A stretch of DNA of 64,000 nt from Mycolicibacterium aubagnense (lineage in GTDB: Bacteria; Actinomycetota; Actinomycetes; Mycobacteriales; Mycobacteriaceae). The stretch lies in NCBI RefSeq assembly GCF_010730955.1, contig NZ_AP022577.1, positions 5,766,001-5,830,000 on the forward strand, given 5' to 3'. Both the position numbers and the translations under genes were made by a program. The notes beneath the pieces are model-generated. The model was given only the letters and a program-made list of their open reading frames with translations. It made no database searches and was not told where the DNA came from. Of this stretch, positions 1,815 to 63,570 are shown piece after piece. How positions within the stretch are numbered: the stretch's first letter is position 1; each line of letters starts with the position of its first letter.

Positions 1815-2756
1815 GTGTCGAGCCAGCCGACCCTATGGGCAATCAGTGACCTGCACATTGGGCACACCGGAAACAAGCCGGTCACCGAGTCGCTGCACCC
1901 GGCCTCGCCTGACGACTGGCTGATCGTCGCCGGCGACGTCGCCGAGCGCACCGACGACATCCGGTGGTCCCTGGACCTGCTGCGCAAGCGCTTCGCCAAG
2001 GTCATCTGGGTGCCGGGCAACCACGAACTGTGGACCACCAACAAGGACCCGATGCAGATTTTCGGGAAGGCTCGCTACGACTATCTGGTCGACATGTGCG
2101 ACCAGATGGGCATCGTGACCCCGGAGCATCCGTTTCCGGTGTGGACCGGCCCGGGCGGCGCGGCCACGATCGTGCCGATGTTCCTGCTGTACGACTACAG
2201 CTTCCTGCCCGCGGGCACGGCGACCAAGGCCGAGGGCCTGGCGCTGGCCAAGGAGCGCAATGTGGTCGGCACCGACGAGTTCCTGCTCTCGAGTGAGCCG
2301 TACGCGACGCGGGATGCGTGGTGCCGGGACCGGCTGAACATCACGCGCAAAAAACTCGACGACCTGGACTGGATGGAGTCGACGGTCTTGGTCAACCACT
2401 TCCCGCTGGTCCGAGAACCCTGCGACGCCATGTTCTACCCGGAGTTCTCGTTGTGGTGCGGCACCACCGCGACGAAAGACTGGCACACCCGCTACAACGC
2501 CATCTGCTCGGTGTACGGCCACCTGCACATCCCGCGCACCACCTGGTACGACGGCGTGCGCTTCGAAGAAGTCTCCGTCGGCTACCCGCGAGAGTGGCGG
2601 CGCCGCAAGCCTTATCGATGGATGCGCCAAATCTTGCCGGACCCCCAGTACCAGCCCGGCTACCTCAACGACTTCGGTGGCCACTTCCAGATCACCCAGG
2701 AGATGCGGGAGCACGCGCAGAAGATGCAGGACCGAATCAATTCGAGGCGGCTGTGA
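1815..2756 (+). CDS. pptH: 4'-phosphopantetheinyl hydrolase PptH (metallophosphoesterase)
   Basis: 313 residues with the complete calcineurin-like metallophosphoesterase signature: DLH (D12, H14), GD (D41), GNHE (69-71), NHFP and GHLH. The M. tuberculosis homologue Rv2795c removes 4'-phosphopantetheine from holo carrier proteins, the reverse of PptT, and its loss protects cells from PptT inhibitors. The next intact gene is pptT, as in M. tuberculosis. The start is a GTG at 1815. The stop TGA overlaps the ATG of a repeat-derived micro-ORF (TGATG) that leads into pptT, so the two opposing enzymes are probably co-transcribed and translationally linked. Identity rests on motifs plus gene order. 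Confidence 0.9.
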   Translation: MSSQPTLWAISDLHIGHTGNKPVTESLHPASPDDWLIVAGDVAERTDDIRWSLDLLRKRFAKVIWVPGNHELWTTNKDPMQIFGKARYDYLVDMCDQMGIVTPEHPFPVWTGPGGAATIVPMFLLYDYSFLPAGTATKAEGLALAKERNVVGTDEFLLSSEPYATRDAWCRDRLNITRKKLDDLDWMESTVLVNHFPLVREPCDAMFYPEFSLWCGTTATKDWHTRYNAICSVYGHLHIPRTTWYDGVRFEEVSVGYPREWRRRKPYRWMRQILPDPQYQPGYLNDFGGHFQITQEMREHAQKMQDRINSRRL

Positions 2757-2824
2757 TGAGCGCTTGCGCGAAGAAGCGAGGAGCTGTGATGAGCGCTTGC
2801 GCGAAGAATCGAGGATCGCTGTGA
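2756..2824 (+). repeat. Two tandem units of the SACAK repeat forming a 22-codon micro-ORF between pptH and pptT
   Basis: Two 33-36 bp units, each beginning ATGAGCGCTTGCGCGAAGAA, fill the whole gap between pptH and pptT. The open frame 2756-2824 reads MSACAKKRGAV then [11 protein letters not shown] and stop. Its ATG overlaps the pptH stop (TGATG, 2754-2758) and its stop overlaps the pptT GTG (GTGA, 2821-2824). The same unit recurs at 61879-62035 and, degenerate, near 45.3 and 46.2 kb. The arrangement resembles mycobacterial MIRUs in logic (repeat with overlapping stop/start codons), but I do not recognise it as a MIRU sequence. Whether the peptide is made is unknown. Confidence 0.85.
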
Positions 2825-4412: not shown

Positions 4413-5345
4413 TCAGTCGCCTTCGGCCAGAAACGGTTCCGCGCGGTGTGGTGGGGCCGCCGGGGCACCGGCCGCGTCCAGGAGGCTGAGGGCCTCGGCG
4501 TCGAGCCGGATCGAACCGGCCGCGGCGTTGTCCTCCAGATGCGCGACCGATCGGGTACCGGCGATCAGCAGGGTGTTCGGGGCGTGCGGCAGTAACCAGG
4601 CCAGGCCGACCTGGGCGGGCGTGGCGCCGATTCGCTCAGCCACTGTTCGTACCGAGGGGTCGTCGGCGACACTGGGGAATCCGGGGAACGCCGAGCCGAG
4701 CGGAAAGAACGGCACCCAGGCGATGCCCTCTTCGACGCACAGGCGCAAGGTGTCCTCCTGCGCCCGGTCGAGCACGCTGTAGGCGTTCTGGACGCAGGTG
4801 ATGCCCGCCGGTAGTGCGTGGCGAACCGTCTCGACCGGCACCGCGCTCAGGCCGATTGCGCCGATCTTGCCCTCGTCGCGCAGCGCGATCATCTCCGCCA
4901 GTTGATCATCGACGTCGACGATCTGATCACCCTCGGTCTGAACGCCAGGTGTCAGATCCAATCGACGCAAGTTGACCACCGGAATCTGTTCCAAACCAAG
5001 CTGATTCAGGTCCATTTCGACCGCAGCCCGCAATTCGGCGGGTTTCTGCGCGGCCGCCAGCGGCACCGGTCCGTCCGGCACGTGTACCGCACCGACCTTG
5101 CTGACGATGACCAGGTCGTCGCGGTACGGGCGGAGCGCTTGCCGGATCAGGGCATTCACCGTTCCGCCGCCGTAGAACGACGCGGTGTCGATGTGGTTGA
5201 TGCCGAGCTCGACCGAACGGTGCAGCAGCGCCACCGCGGCATCAGGGGAGCCGGCATCGTGCAGCTGCATGGCTCCGTAGCCGATCCGGGCCACCGGGCG
5301 GCCACCGATCGAACCGAGGCCGCCAGGGTGTGTCGTATCGGTCAT
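4413..5345 (-). CDS. Aldo/keto reductase family oxidoreductase
   Basis: 310 residues of an NADPH-dependent TIM-barrel reductase. D53 (HIDTA), Y58 (SFYGGG) and K83 (VSKVG) are in place. The position of the usual catalytic His is occupied by Arg (VVNLRRLD, R127), a variant common in short actinobacterial members. The C-terminus retains the GTRSVAHLEDN cofactor-phosphate block. It is divergently transcribed from a TetR gene at 5439, and two identical palindromes in the gap suggest that the TetR controls it. Substrate unknown. Its stop lies close to the truB stop on the opposite strand. Confidence 0.88.
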   Translation of the reverse strand: MTDTTHPGGLGSIGGRPVARIGYGAMQLHDAGSPDAAVALLHRSVELGINHIDTASFYGGGTVNALIRQALRPYRDDLVIVSKVGAVHVPDGPVPLAAAQKPAELRAAVEMDLNQLGLEQIPVVNLRRLDLTPGVQTEGDQIVDVDDQLAEMIALRDEGKIGAIGLSAVPVETVRHALPAGITCVQNAYSVLDRAQEDTLRLCVEEGIAWVPFFPLGSAFPGFPSVADDPSVRTVAERIGATPAQVGLAWLLPHAPNTLLIAGTRSVAHLEDNAAAGSIRLDAEALSLLDAAGAPAAPPHRAEPFLAEGD

Positions 5346-45306: not shown

Positions 45307-45341
45307 GTCAGGTTCTCTGTTCCTCGCGCAAACGCTCGTCA
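45307..45341 (-). repeat. Degenerate SACAK repeat unit between SDR and methyltransferase
   Basis: On the minus strand the SDR stop is followed by GACGAGCGTTTGCGCGAGGA and a few more bases, then the methyltransferase ATG. Compared with the intact unit the ATG has become ACG, so no micro-ORF remains. It occupies exactly the gap between stop and start, like the other copies. Confidence 0.65.
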
Positions 45342-46157
45342 GCGTTTGTTGACGAAACCGGCGTCCACCGGCAGCGTCACCCCGGTGATGTACCGCCCGG
45401 CGTCCGACACCAGCCATGCCACCGTGTTGGCGATGTCCTCTGCGTCGAGGACCTGCACGGGCAACGCGTTACTCATGTCCGGGCCGGCTTTGGTCTCTGC
45501 CGTCAACTGGCTCAACCACTTTCGGGTGAAGTCGTTGTCGATCATCGGGGTGTCCACCCCGGCCGGGTGGATCGAGTTGACCCGGATGTTCTGCGAGGCA
45601 AGCAGATTCGCGTACACCCGCATGAGGCCGACCATGCCGTGCTTGGCGGCGGCATAGCCCACCGAACCGGCCATCGGTGAGGCCAGCCCGACCAGTCCGG
45701 CGACCGAGCTGATCAGCACGATCGACCCACCGTTGCCGGCCTTGACCATGGGGCGCGTCGCCACCTCGAGAGTGTTGTAGACGCCGGTCAGGTTGACGTC
45801 GATGACGTCCTGCCAGGCGTCCTCACCGGCCATGGGTGCGATGCCCGCATTGGCGATGACGATGTCCAGCCGCCCGCCGAGTTCGTCGACGCCGGCCTTC
45901 AGTGCCGCCTTCAGGGCATCGCGGTCGCGGACGTCGGCCTGGACGGCCACGATCCGGGCCCCGTTCTCCTGGACGAGCTTGACGGTCGCAGCCAGATCGT
46001 CGGGCGTGGCCATGGGGTAGGGGACCGACGCGATCTGGTCGCACAGGTCGACCGCGATGATGTCGGCACCCATCGACGACAGCTTGACCGCGTGCGCGCG
46101 ACCCTGGCCGCGCGCCGCGCCGGTGATGAAGGCGACCTTGCCGCTCAGCTCGCCCAT
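45339..46157 (-). CDS. Short-chain dehydrogenase, mycofactocin-coupled type
   Basis: 272 residues from ATG 46157. [20 protein letters not shown] is the cofactor loop characteristic of mycofactocin-coupled SDRs, which keep a non-exchanging NAD(H). The active site has SSVAGLVG and YAAAKHG (YxxxK), followed by [12 protein letters not shown]. The mycofactocin dependence is inferred from the subfamily, since no mft genes are in view. Homologue of Rv2750 by position. It lies between two degenerate repeat units. Confidence 0.88.
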
Positions 46158-46192
46158 CGCGCGTCCTCTCGGCTCTTCGCACCAGCGCTCAT
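46158..46192 (-). repeat. Degenerate SACAK repeat with micro-ORF between monooxygenase and SDR
   Basis: On the minus strand the monooxygenase stop overlaps an ATG (TGATG, 46190-46194) that begins [15 protein letters not shown], 15 codons, running past the SDR start at 46157. The DNA is a diverged copy of the unit at 2756 and 61879 and again fills the gap between two genes. Confidence 0.7.
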
Positions 46193-46512
46193 CACTGGCC
46201 CCGCAGCTGGCCCTTGGCCGGATCGCCGGCGACCACGGGGGCGAGCATCTTGATGTCGGGTGCGCCGTCGAGGTGCTCGCCGATGGCGCCGAACAGCTTC
46301 CCGATGGCGGGAGCCGTGCTGTGGGTCTTGAGGGCATCCGCGTCGGCCCACTGCTCGACGAAGACAAAGGTGCCACCGTCGGCCTCGTGCAGTGAGTAGA
46401 GCTCACAGCCCGGCTCGCAGTGGACGGCGTCGACGGCTTCGACGCACGCGGTGCGGACCAGATCGACGGACTCGGGCTTGGCTTTCATGGTGGCGACGAC
46501 AACGACCGGCAT
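46192..46512 (-). CDS. Antibiotic biosynthesis monooxygenase (ABM) domain protein
   Basis: 106 residues, one ferredoxin-like ABM domain: [54 protein letters not shown] and [14 protein letters not shown]. Small quinol or anthrone monooxygenases and many dimeric proteins of unknown function share this fold. Rv2749 homologue by position. Operon with the SDR and probably the methyltransferase downstream. Confidence 0.83.
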
Positions 46513-60410: not shown

Positions 60411-61031
60411 ATGCCGATCGGTAGACCGCGCATGTTCGACCCCGAGTCCGTTCTCGACATCGCGATGCGGTTGTTCTGGGCGCACGGCTATGACGGGGTG
60501 TCCATCAGTGACCTCACGGCTGCGACCGGCATCAACCGCCGCAGCCTGTACGCCGAATACGGTTCCAAGGCGGACCTCTTTCGGGCTGCCGTGCGGCGCT
60601 ACCAGGCCGGGCCCGGCGGATACGCCGAGCGTGCGCTCGCCCTGCCCACCGCATGGGAAACGGCGTACGCCATGGTGCACGGCGCCGTCGACGCGTCGTC
60701 CGGGACAGCGGGCCCGCGCGGATGCCTGCTGGTGCAAAGTGCGCTGGCCGCCGGCGATGAGGCGACAGAGTTGCACGCCGAGCTGGCCCAGCTTCGCGAA
60801 GACGGAATCACGGAGCTGGCCGAACGATTCCGGGCTGCCCAGCTCGTGGGCGAACTACCCGGGGCGGACCCGGAGCTGTTGGCGCGCTGGATCGGTGCGA
60901 TCAGTCAGGGTCTGGCGGTCCAAGCCAACAGCGTTGCCGACCGTGACGAACTGCACGCGGTGGCGGATCAGGCTCTCCGGGCCTGGCCGATGGCGCCTCA
61001 GGCCGCCGGTGTGCCTGGCGTGTCGTCCTGA
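60411..61031 (+). CDS. TetR-family transcriptional regulator
   Basis: 206 residues from ATG 60411, preceded by GGGAGG. It begins GRPRMFDPESVLDIAMRLFWAHGYDGVSISDLTAATGINRRSLYAEYGSKADLFRAAV, the helix-turn-helix of the TetR group with a C-terminal domain containing GPRGCLLVQSALA. Likely represses the divergent SDR. Its 3' end overlaps the convergent ABC permease gene by 34 bases. Confidence 0.9.
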   Translation: MPIGRPRMFDPESVLDIAMRLFWAHGYDGVSISDLTAATGINRRSLYAEYGSKADLFRAAVRRYQAGPGGYAERALALPTAWETAYAMVHGAVDASSGTAGPRGCLLVQSALAAGDEATELHAELAQLREDGITELAERFRAAQLVGELPGADPELLARWIGAISQGLAVQANSVADRDELHAVADQALRAWPMAPQAAGVPGVSS

Positions 61032-61879
61032 ACACCGGTATTCACCGGCAGTGGCTCCGGGGCGCGTCGCGACCTCCGCAACCGGCGTTCGAGTCGGGTC
61101 GCCAGCGCCGACAGCGCGAAGTTGAGGCTGATCATCAGCACCGCGATCACCAGCAGCGCGGGGATGTAATTGCTGTACGCCGAACCGATGTTGGTGCCCT
61201 GGCGGACCATCTCGACGAAGGTGATCTGGTAGCCGATGGCGGTGTCCTTGAGCACCACCACCATCTGGGACACCAACACGGGCAGCATCGACGTCACGGC
61301 CTGGGGGAGCAGGATCAGCCGCAGCGTCTGACCGGGTCGCAGACCCAGTGCCACGGCAGCCTCACGTTGCCCGCGGGGCAGCGCGTACACGCCGGCGCGC
61401 ACGATCTCCGCGATCACGGCGCCGTTGTACAGCGTCAGCCCGGTGATCACGCCGGCGAGCGCGAGCTGCCGTGACGGGAAGACGTCGTACAACGCGAACA
61501 GGAAGTACGCGAACAGCATCATGATCAGCACGGGGACGGCGCGGAAGAACTCGACGAACACCGAGCACGCCCACCGCACCGCGCGGGCTTCGGACAGCCG
61601 GCCCATGCCCAGCAGTAGACCCAGCACCAGCGCCAGCACGATCGACACCGCCGCCGCCGTCAACGTGCCGACGGCACCCGGCAGCACGTACGTCGTCCAC
61701 AGGTTCGCGGTCAGGAACGGGTGCCACTTCGCTTCGGTCAGTTGGCCTTTGGACTCGAACTGCCACAGCACCCAGCCGGCCATCGCAATGATCACCGCGA
61801 CGATGACGGCGGCGAAAACCAGGTTGCGACGCTGCGCCCGCGGTCCCGGGGCGTCGTAGAGGACGGCGGAGGATGTCAT
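60998..61879 (-). CDS. Glutamate-type ABC transporter permease (GluD/HisM family)
   Basis: 293 residues from ATG 61879, which overlaps the stop of the last repeat-derived micro-ORF (TGATG). About five or six membrane helices; the EAA loop is GQREAAVALGLRPGQTLRLILLPQAVTSMLPVLVSQ. It pairs with the permease half of the fusion protein encoded upstream and with the ATPase at 63573 to form a polar amino-acid importer. The Arg/Pro-rich tail (LERRLRRSRRAPEPLP) is cytoplasmic. Confidence 0.9.
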   Translation of the reverse strand: MTSSAVLYDAPGPRAQRRNLVFAAVIVAVIIAMAGWVLWQFESKGQLTEAKWHPFLTANLWTTYVLPGAVGTLTAAAVSIVLALVLGLLLGMGRLSEARAVRWACSVFVEFFRAVPVLIMMLFAYFLFALYDVFPSRQLALAGVITGLTLYNGAVIAEIVRAGVYALPRGQREAAVALGLRPGQTLRLILLPQAVTSMLPVLVSQMVVVLKDTAIGYQITFVEMVRQGTNIGSAYSNYIPALLVIAVLMISLNFALSALATRLERRLRRSRRAPEPLPVNTGVQDDTPGTPAA

Positions 61880-62037
61880 CACAGCCCTCTGTTCTTCGCG
61901 CAAGCGCTCATCAGAGTCCTCTGTTCTTCGCGCAAGCGCTCGCGGGTCTTCTGTTCTTCGCGCAAGCGCTCATCACAGCCCTCTGTTCTTCGCGCAAGCG
62001 CTCGCGGGTCTTCTGTTCTTCGCGCAAGCGCTCATCA
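61879..62037 (-). repeat. Five-core SACAK repeat array between two transporter genes
   Basis: Five copies of TGTTCTTCGCGCAAGCGCTC (plus strand; at 61890, 61922, 61952, 61984 and 62014), alternately 32 and 30 bases apart. Read on the coding strand they form three micro-ORFs in series, each starting MSACAKN; the first two are 19 codons with two SACAKN cores and the third is 10 codons. Each stop overlaps the next ATG as TGATG. The first ATG overlaps the fusion gene stop and the last stop overlaps the permease ATG. Confidence 0.9.
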
Positions 62038-63570
62038 CCGAACCACCGCGTATCGCTTACCCAACCAACTGAACAACAGCCCCAACGGCAATGTCAGGAC
62101 CACGAAACCAGCGGCGAAGATCGAACCGACCGCCAGCAGTGCCGCGGTGTTCTCGATCATCTCCTTCATCAGCAGCGCCGCCTCGGCGACACCGATGGCC
62201 GATGCGATGGTGGTGTTCTTCACCAAGGCGATCAACACGGAACCCAGCGGGTTGAGCACCGCGCGAAAAGCCTGCGGCAGCAAGATCATCCGCAGGTTCT
62301 GCCCGAAGCTCAGGCCCAGCGAGCGCGCGGCTTCGGCCTGGCCCAGCGGCACGGTGTTGATGCCCGAGCGCAACGTCTCGCACACGAATGACGCGGTGTA
62401 GACGGTCAACCCGAGAGCCGCGAGCCGAAAGTTGCTGTCCACCACGGCTGTCGGCGAATGTGGATCGACCAGGGTGATCCGCAGGGTGTTCCCGATGCCG
62501 AACGAGCAGAACAGGATGATCAGCGTCAACGGGGTGTTACGGACCACGTTGACGTACGCCGTGCCCAGCCAGCGCAGCACCGGCACCGGCGACAGCCGCA
62601 TCGCGGCCAGCATTGTGCCGAGGATCAGCGCACCGACCCCGGCGAGCAGCGTGAGTTGGATCGTCGTCCAGAACGCGGCCAGAATCTTGCCGCCGTAGGT
62701 GCCCCACAGATCGACGCGCTTCGATCCGCCGGCGCCATTGATGTCGGCGTCCAGCGGGGGAGGCGCCGGCGCAGACAGGCCGGCCGGCCCCAGGTTGCGG
62801 TCGAATGCGGCCTGCCACTCACCGGTCTTCTGCATCTTCTCGATGGCGTCGTTGATCTTCTGGCGTAATTCCTTGTCGCCCTTGAGCAATCCGATGCCGT
62901 ACTTCTCCACCGAGAAGGGCTTGCCGACCAGTTTGAACGCGCCCGGGGTCTGGGCGGCGTAGCCGGCCAGGATCACCTCGTCGGTGCTGAGCGCATCGAT
63001 GGCGCCGGTCTTCACGGCCTCGAGACAGGCCGAGTAGGTGTCGTACTGCTGTAGCTGCACGCCCGGATATTTGTCCTTGATGCGTTGCGCCGGTGTGGAA
63101 CCCGACACCGAGCACAGCTTCTTGTGGTTCTGCAGCGACTCGACACTGGTGATCTCGTTGTTGTCGGCGCGCACCAGCAGGCTCTGGCCGGTGACCAGAT
63201 ACGGACCGCCGAACGACACCTTCTGCTTACGGGCGTCGGTGATCGAGTAGGTGGCCACGATGAAGTCGACCTGGCGGTTCTGGATCAGGTTCTCGCGCTG
63301 ACCCGACGGGGCCTCTTTCCACTCGATGTCACCGGGCTGATAGCCGAGCTGCCCGGCGACGTACGTCGCGACGTCGATGTCGAAGCCGGCCAGGGTGCCG
63401 TCTGGCTTCTTCGCGGCCAGACCGGGTTGGTCGAACTTGGTGCCGATGGTGATCTTCTTGCTGGTGCCGCCACACGCGCTCAGCGTCAGTAACGCGGCGA
63501 TCAGCACGGTGACCGCGGCGAGACGGCGGAACGCCTGCGGCGTCAGCTGCGGCCTGATTGATCGTTCCAC
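62035..63570 (-). CDS. Fused amino-acid binding lipoprotein and ABC permease
   Basis: 511 residues. A lipoprotein signal ends LLTLSACGG (Cys33). Residues 38-265 form a type-3 periplasmic binding domain (ITIGTKFDQPGLAAKKPDGTLAGFDIDVATYVAGQLGY, FIVATYSITDARKQKVSFGGPYL). A linker of about 35 residues leads to an ABC permease domain (about 300-505) with the EAA loop GQAEAARSLGLSFGQNLRMILLPQAF. In Corynebacterium the matching GluB and GluC are separate. The GTG start is two bases after the ATPase stop. Confidence 0.92.
   Translation of the reverse strand: MERSIRPQLTPQAFRRLAAVTVLIAALLTLSACGGTSKKITIGTKFDQPGLAAKKPDGTLAGFDIDVATYVAGQLGYQPGDIEWKEAPSGQRENLIQNRQVDFIVATYSITDARKQKVSFGGPYLVTGQSLLVRADNNEITSVESLQNHKKLCSVSGSTPAQRIKDKYPGVQLQQYDTYSACLEAVKTGAIDALSTDEVILAGYAAQTPGAFKLVGKPFSVEKYGIGLLKGDKELRQKINDAIEKMQKTGEWQAAFDRNLGPAGLSAPAPPPLDADINGAGGSKRVDLWGTYGGKILAAFWTTIQLTLLAGVGALILGTMLAAMRLSPVPVLRWLGTAYVNVVRNTPLTLIILFCSFGIGNTLRITLVDPHSPTAVVDSNFRLAALGLTVYTASFVCETLRSGINTVPLGQAEAARSLGLSFGQNLRMILLPQAFRAVLNPLGSVLIALVKNTTIASAIGVAEAALLMKEMIENTAALLAVGSIFAAGFVVLTLPLGLLFSWLGKRYAVVR

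Follow-up and report, generated by a model that had tools for sequence, protein, structure and literature searches.

MIRU units measure 46-101 bp, their arrays vary in length, and to our knowledge they are without dyad symmetry. REP/BIME elements with their RAYT transposases are small imperfect palindromes which occur in many copies in intergenic regions, with a GTAG-type tetranucleotide beside the hairpin. According to the summary of Supply et al. 1997 given in a passage of PMC12548453, MIRUs are short, apparently mobile and insert at start codons; the same passage describes an internal ORF that is coupled, at a spacing of -4, to the gene that follows, tolerance of insertions through this coupling being a proposal. 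For the M. avium MIRU292 unit a length of 53 bp is given in an excerpt of PMC7977185. A second line of comparison comes from small ORFs that are RTGA-coupled to the following gene, which are reported in the main text of Shell et al. 2015 (PMC4633059) to be over-represented in mycobacteria. The terms 'miru' and 'repetitive' do not occur in that main text, and the paper is not about a repeat.

Here, we describe a repeat in Mycolicibacterium aubagnense, starting from the window, i.e. the whole stretch of 64,000 nucleotides that was analysed. Our results suggest that a repeat of about 30 bases has spread across mycobacteria and some related bacteria by way of the stop/start junctions of genes. It is likely a small MIRU-like interspersed repeat with a probable hairpin, which sits at such junctions and usually keeps their coupling. 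At the level of sequence, there is a family of copies with a characteristic placement and orientation, there are empty sites and array-length differences among genomes, and there is covariation of outer and central pairs. New here is that the conserved part looks like a hairpin, with covariation of the outer pairs and an exchange of the central U-A for C-G.

The window array lies on the minus strand between two transporter genes (Table 1). GAGCGCTTGCGCGAAGAACAGA is found five times at 61888-62033, all copies being exact, with start-to-start distances of 32, 30, 32 and 30. The full GATGA 5' end is present in three of the five cores, and GCGA stands there in the two inner ones. The first-pass annotation had described five cores that build three micro-ORFs, all starting MSACAKN, between the fused transporter gene and the second permease; this proved right to the base, and the alternating spacing of 30 and 32 was measured as had been described. 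Likewise, the coordinates bear out its TGATG overlap at every link, from the stop of the upstream gene through each micro-ORF to the next and from the last micro-ORF to the permease start. At three mismatches or less to the core, the window contains eight matches and 100 dinucleotide-preserving shuffles contain none; together with the read-backwards control described below, this rules out chance or low complexity as the source of the copies. A search of Rfam with positions 61700-62200 yielded no family at the gathering score, the best of 12 weak matches reaching 15.2 bits as compared to the 90 needed. No paper recognisable as describing the repeat was listed in the open-library literature searched, and the core, MSACAKN and MSACAKS strings were absent from the texts searched.

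Table 1. Copies of the repeat, micro-ORFs and adjoining transporter genes in the window.
Feature	Position	Strand	Remarks
Second site, copy 1 with two flanking bases per side	2753..2776	+	metallophosphoesterase stop TGA 2754-2756
Second site, copy 2 with flanking bases	2786..2809	+	core match
Second-site micro-ORF	2756..2824	+	22 aa, in frame through both copies
Diverged copy, GACGA..GAGGA (C-G) subfamily	45319..45342	-	at a TGA; flank CT..AC
Diverged single copy	46172..46195	-	GTGATGAGCGCTGGTGCGAAGAGC
Downstream gene, second permease (BPD_transp_1)	60998..61879	-	ATG at 61879
Micro-ORF 3	61879..61911	-	10 aa, MSACAKNRGL; TGA overlaps permease ATG
Core copy 5, last before downstream permease	61888..61909	-	full 20-mer 61893-61912
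Micro-ORF 2	61911..61973	-	20 aa, MSACAKNRRPASACAKNRGL again
Core copy 4	61920..61941	-	GCGA in place of GATGA at 5' end
Core copy 3	61950..61971	-	full 20-mer 61955-61974
Micro-ORF 1	61973..62035	-	20 aa, MSACAKNRRPASACAKNRGL
Core copy 2	61982..62003	-	5' end GCGA
Core copy 1, at stop codon of upstream gene	62012..62033	-	full 20-mer 62017-62036
Upstream gene, SBP_bac_3 solute-binding protein fused to BPD_transp_1 permease	62035..63570	-	stop 62037-62035

Three sites in the window add to those of the first-pass annotation, namely 2753-2809, 45319-45342 and 46172-46195. At the first of these, the TGA of the micro-ORF (2822-2824) overlaps the GTG at 2821 of a phosphopantetheinyl transferase gene. 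A long target-site duplication, suspected at 2753-2830 and at one further locus (L150), was rejected, because the flanks of 58 arrays match no better than shuffled ones beyond (G)ATGA.

A search of the home genome and of other mycobacterial genomes with the core, as had been proposed, revealed a dispersed family of which the window array is one site. At one mismatch or less, the 20-mer GATGAGCGCTTGCGCGAAGA has 30 copies in the home genome and is present in 270 of 396 genomes of the same genus (home genome included; 244 of the 361 of good quality). Copy number per genome ranges from 0 to 98, with absence from 126 of the 396 at this threshold, and the 20-mer read backwards gave no match in the same-genus genomes. 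In the 6.32 Mb home genome, the 15-base centre has 22 exact occurrences and another 14 with one mismatch (three for the pattern read backwards). TGA or TGAG directly precedes 32 of these 36 places; the other four comprise both GCGA copies from the inside of the window array and two coding-like places (L023 and L028 minus). A covariance model, built from 45 aligned sequences out of 68 distinct ones after nine whole loci and two coding copies had been left out, yielded 44 home-genome matches at E<=1, 36 of them at E<=0.0024, a lower bound since 150 of 9311 first-look candidates were scored. A weak three-unit array with 33-nt spacing on the plus strand of the home genome (G000:C1:4501163-4501253; covariance-model E 0.12-0.35) is perhaps an older subfamily.

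In an order-level sample, the 20-mer was found in 32 of 150 genomes, nine of them among the 14 genomes of the window's genus. A class sample of 158 genomes, searched with the two loop bases free and no mismatch, was positive in 4 of 12 genomes of the own order and in 3 of 146 outside it, the latter with one copy each. Among the matches listed, a scan of named records returned mostly mycobacteria, besides a few MAGs under other labels (Rokubacteria, L087 and L095; Planctomycetota, L098; Melainabacteria, L060; Bifidobacterium, L085). On the Planctomycetota contig, five cores with 87-89 nt spacing lie within a longer tandem repeat on the reverse strand (about 4758-5130), and no coding flank was found around these five copies. 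A phage or plasmid origin was ruled against, as the exact 20-mer was absent from viral contigs and blastn of a 69-nt query against plasmid and phage records gave no match at E<=1.

The position of the copies with respect to stop and start codons of co-directional genes, tabulated as the first-pass annotation had advised, is not random and lies far above control. The placement set comprised 233 distinct copies with two mismatches or less from home-genome loci, the window and at least 120 named loci. They form 162 arrays, of which 150 were used (12 being too near the end of their locus), and a frame was taken as coding when open for at least 300 nt with GC3 well above GC2. In 87 of the 150 arrays the stop of such a frame coincides with the TGA of the element (46 with GATGA, 41 with TGATGA), the control count at GATGA sites elsewhere in these loci being 20 of 1500. 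Coding in the same direction on both sides was found for 108 of 150 arrays versus 82 of 1500 control sites. Flanks were sense/sense in 105 of 147 cases and anti/anti in 2, the respective counts at 1500 random places being 332 and 309.

Downstream, the chain of micro-ORFs was followed in 90 arrays, the other 60 of the 150 being left out because their flanks were not both coding or the stop was further off. Followed from the first ATG, 72 of the 90 chains end on a start in the downstream frame and overlap it exactly (61 at -4, 11 at -1); six chains run in frame into the gene, seven end near a start, four break and one is without a start. The other two frames of the same DNA (n=180) gave 27 exact overlaps, 58 in frame, 72 near and 23 none. 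In 49 of 58 arrays the distance to the overlapping NTGA start keeps the frame of the micro-ORF, and in 33 it amounts to 33 bases (92 of the 150 arrays were without coding flanks, an exact stop or an overlapping in-frame NTGA start). Within arrays, 63 of 69 spacings of up to 35 are 0 or 2 modulo 3, i.e. in frame or overlapping, and 60 of the 69 are 30, 32 or 33. The strictly conserved part is 20 nt long; the tail differs among loci and is nearly constant within most arrays.

The exact stops, the sense orientation and the exact downstream overlaps support at sequence level the view of a dispersed element that preserves stop/start coupling, with some corrections. The stop/start link stands, but the commonest overlap with the next gene comprises 4 nt (ATGA or GTGA) and not TGATG. 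In place of a fixed 32-mer, the unit comprises a 20-24 nt core plus a variable tail. Of the 69 array spacings, six break the frame. We infer that the micro-ORFs are probably translated, that coupling would be the reason why insertions are tolerated and that arrays would grow through local duplication. Tolerance through micro-ORF coupling is in line with the MIRU proposal and with the reported excess of RTGA-coupled small ORFs.

The conserved part is a probable hairpin, NN-GAUGA-GCG(CUUG)CGC-GAAGA-N'N'. Outer pairs were counted in 154 first copies, eight of the 162 with two mismatches being left out. The -1/+1 pair, formed by the bases that flank GATGA on its 5' side and GAAGA on its 3' side, is Watson-Crick in 145 of the 154 (shuffle mean 79.9, sd 5.5), and the -2/+2 pair in 110 (shuffle mean 75.7, sd 4.7). 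Among the seven full copies of the window, -1/+1 is Watson-Crick in six and a T..G wobble in one, and -2/+2 is Watson-Crick in three. A third outer pair, -3/+3, is depleted (8 of 154 as compared to 35.6 expected, sd 4.7), for which a stem of fixed length is the only explanation we offer. The two middle loop bases, i.e. 2 of 20 positions, account for 11 of 30 single changes, with the variants TC, CT, TG, GT and TA.

Central-base variants (flank T..A, 5' base not T) were found at 159 places; among the 150 listed, 142 are C..G doubles, the rest being six C..A, one C..C and one A..A. Changes on the 3' side only gave six matches in 392 genomes. The GCG/CGC stem has zero both-side changes in its three pairs among the 45 aligned sequences, and its seven single changes leave a G-U in three cases and break the pair in four. 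Overall, three of five covariation measures on these 45 sequences lie above shuffles and two do not: cells with double changes and the covariation score exceed them (0 of 500 as high), pairs with a double change and pair types do not (390 and 285 of 500 as high). As the shuffles ignore relatedness, neither these values nor those for the outer pairs are probabilities. An unusually stable thermodynamic fold was rejected, as the minimum-energy folds of four copies are no better than shuffles (z 0.22, 0.46, 0.79 and -0.81) and one copy folds otherwise.

In the C-G subfamily (GACGA..GAGGA), the central U-A of GAUGA/GAAGA is exchanged for C-G. Thirty such loci were fetched, two of them without the double change, and 28 first copies were used for stop placement. 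In 20 of these 28 the upstream stop lies exactly at -1, which argues against a coding coincidence, a candidate considered as GACGAGCGCTTGCGCGAGGA can encode DERLREE inside genes and the copies in L023, L065 and L088 look so. The -2/+2 pair is formed in 15 of 29 copies (shuffle mean 6.6, largest 13). The exchange removes the internal ATG of GATGA. One codon upstream in this frame, the 11 of 29 copies with flank AT or GT have an ATG or GTG, and the other 18 have neither there; fold and coupling can therefore part. This loss of the start codon in most C-G copies renders our main reading slightly weaker and the rival of an mRNA element, discussed below, slightly stronger. The subfamily may represent few events or one old change that spread.

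Occupancy of the window junction was compared among relatives. The junction was recovered in 55 of 98 same-genus genomes searched, 27 of the 98 giving no match at all. Thirteen are occupied, one is a relic and 41 are empty, and the comparison of array lengths that the first-pass annotation had called for shows lengths from one to about five copies at this one junction. All 41 empty junctions have an overlapping stop/start motif (30 NTGA, 11 at -1), and in about six the true start is seemingly further on (L170, L172, L174, L178, L201 and L202). The relic (L196) is a decayed copy in which the tail GAAGAACGGGCAGCCATGAG is kept and the rest of the hairpin is gone, its sister on the tree (L169) being occupied. 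Two related genomes, L172 and L174, have something else at this stop/start place, namely an insert of about 80-90 nt whose ends are inverted and resemble GAGCAGACAC..GTGTCTGCTC.

Four occupied loci from the named records were added for a protein tree, which has 59 rows (17 occupied, one relic and 41 empty; L168, which is without the junction, and the duplicates L212, L213 and L100 were left out) and gives 13 changes of state, at least six to seven of them forced by the starred branches. Shuffled occupancy labels gave 15.0-15.7 changes on average, and 40 to 65 of 500 as few as 13. These changes are gain and/or loss, the two being indistinguishable on the tree. Two other junctions were followed in the best 30 of 78 genomes each. 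The PptT junction, between the metallophosphoesterase and phosphopantetheinyl transferase genes, is occupied in 1 of 30, the home genome only, and the overlap motif is present in 29 of the 29 empty ones. Since the home genome alone is occupied while the others are empty with the motif, the sequences point to a recent gain. The L020 junction is occupied in 3 of 30, the 27 empty ones showing NTGA in 16 and a TAG stop without the motif in 11. Taken across junctions, we infer that copies would move to new junctions and be lost again.

In the reading we prefer, the conserved part of the element would be a hairpin of 20-24 nt in which two outer pairs are followed by a 5x5 internal loop (GAYGA/GARGA) and then by the GCG/CGC stem, closed by a CNNG loop. 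Within the internal loop, a Watson-Crick pair would stand at the centre, possibly accompanied by tandem G-A pairs. A variable tail would follow, its commonest end putting the next start 33 bases after the first G. The site would be a same-strand stop that overlaps or abuts the next start, and (G)ATGA or a similar motif would be present at either end. The upstream stop would lie within the 5' strand of the hairpin, where an ATG would open a micro-ORF whose own stop usually meets the following gene's start; termination and reinitiation could thereby continue as an unbroken chain. Our leading guess, at somewhat less than even odds, is that the moving machinery recognises the hairpin and that the flanking pairs reflect target choice, which would account for the match between host and element bases. 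No mobilising enzyme was found.

The strongest rival, though in our view a somewhat unlikely one, is that the hairpin is a selected mRNA element which modulates termination, reinitiation or mRNA processing and spreads by usefulness and not by selfishness. The almost exclusive sense placement (105 sense/sense versus 2 anti/anti of 147) would be expected of such an element, as would an upstream stop located in the hairpin's 5' strand and the C-G copies that keep the fold where the start codon is lost. The pairing with host flanks at -1 and -2, together with the depleted third pair, would point to selection on a fixed stem length. However, occupancy flips widely, with 13 changes in 59 rows and 1 of 30 PptT junctions occupied, and 126 of 396 same-genus genomes are without a copy at one mismatch or less; taken together, these counts imply that no single gene pair needs the hairpin. 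Moreover, the folding energy is unremarkable.

That the copies are old junction sequence, kept via descent or gene conversion and not inserted, is very unlikely. Some junctions, such as that of the window array, are occupied in many species, as would be expected from it, but the PptT junction is occupied in the home genome and empty with overlapping codons in the 29 others examined, and copy number within the genus runs from 0 to 98. Highly improbable, too, is a family of micro-proteins in which the MSACAKN... peptide itself is functional. The frame of the core is conserved and most copies have an ATG start, yet conservation includes third codon positions and fades at the edge of the hairpin, the tail and hence the C-terminus varies between loci, arrays fuse units in frame, and in the C-G subfamily residues differ and the start is often missing. 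Least probable of all is a REP/RAYT-type element whose movement on single-stranded DNA would depend on a Y1 transposase, for although a short imperfect hairpin in many intergenic copies would suit it, the Y1 transposase profile PF01797 has no match in the home genome and is found in 18 of 98 genomes, and the placement at stop/start junctions is in one orientation.

Returning to the MIRU-like repeat, a narrower version of it, decidedly unlikely on present evidence, would be a transposase-less minimal mobile hairpin of 20-24 nt with base pairing as the readout of its target choice. The two host bases ahead of the upstream stop motif would be the complement of the two that follow the hairpin in the element, and each insertion would complete its own stem on host sequence while rebuilding the stop/start link. 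If true, no self-contained unit of a MIRU-like superfamily would be smaller than this hairpin, which would stand alone in mycobacteria and form the 3' module of units of 75-95 nt in f2, another family of the order.

In f2 (L252-L269), the hairpin is the 3' part of longer units and mostly has a CTCG loop. Spacing in its arrays is 75-95 nt, once 184, and many units begin with ATGAGYGAGSATCGC after gene ends. In 16 of 18 loci the upstream gene stops 43-102 nt ahead of the hairpin, at or close to where the unit begins and not within the hairpin, and RTGA follows within 16 nt after the last hairpin in 17 of 18. By eye these composite units are MIRU-like, but homology to MIRU292 was rejected, the shuffle scores not being convincing: among the 26 units compared (those of L268 and L269 were not scored), 1 and 2 of 500 shuffles were as high for the best two and 8-350 of 500 for the other 24. 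A further family, f12, has 32-nt arrays, one of them with 19 tandem copies after one gene (L270, G437 contig 82) and a CGTG loop in every copy but the first.

Operon junctions seem closed to insertion, yet this repeat entered many of them across an actinobacterial order, and its insertions mostly keep the stop/start link and the probable fold. The C-G copies are natural variants in which the pairing is kept and the start is gone in 18 of 29, and they allow fold and coupling to be separated. Coupled reinitiation, a possible RNA role and the mobility of the repeat thereby become directly testable. In addition, mycobacteria carrying the element may offer copy-number markers.

Among known systems, domain II of the hammerhead ribozyme and tandem G-A motifs have the order UGAUGA - stem - GAA. 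The element shares this order and the possible tandem G-A pairs, but no third stem or cleavage site was seen and GAUGA is mostly preceded by a C that pairs with G. With REP/BIME elements it has in common a short imperfect hairpin in many copies between genes; it differs in its mostly fixed orientation, its stop/start placement, its micro-ORF and a home genome without a Y1 transposase match. As in the small ORFs described in the main text of Shell et al. 2015 (PMC4633059), a TGA overlaps the RTG start of the next gene, whereas the coupled ORF described here is supplied at many loci by a single repeat.

The closest likeness is to MIRU, the principle named in the first-pass annotation, which is apt for placement, coupling and mobility. 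The element sits at stop/start junctions with an internal ORF that overlaps its neighbours in most, not all, copies, and it is polymorphic among genomes and apparently mobile. Its sequence had been noted there as not a recognised one; tests for MIRU sequence, length and fold failed, and Rfam gave no match at the gathering score in 61700-62200. Against the sequence of one MIRU unit, MIRU292, 181 of 500 shuffles were as high for the window array and 7 of 500 for a typed single unit, a weak signal. The unit is mostly 30-33 bp as compared to 53 bp for MIRU292, with 75-95 nt reached only in the composite units of f2, and, in contrast to MIRU, it has covarying outer and central pairs. Hence the element works like a MIRU, yet by sequence, length and fold it is none.
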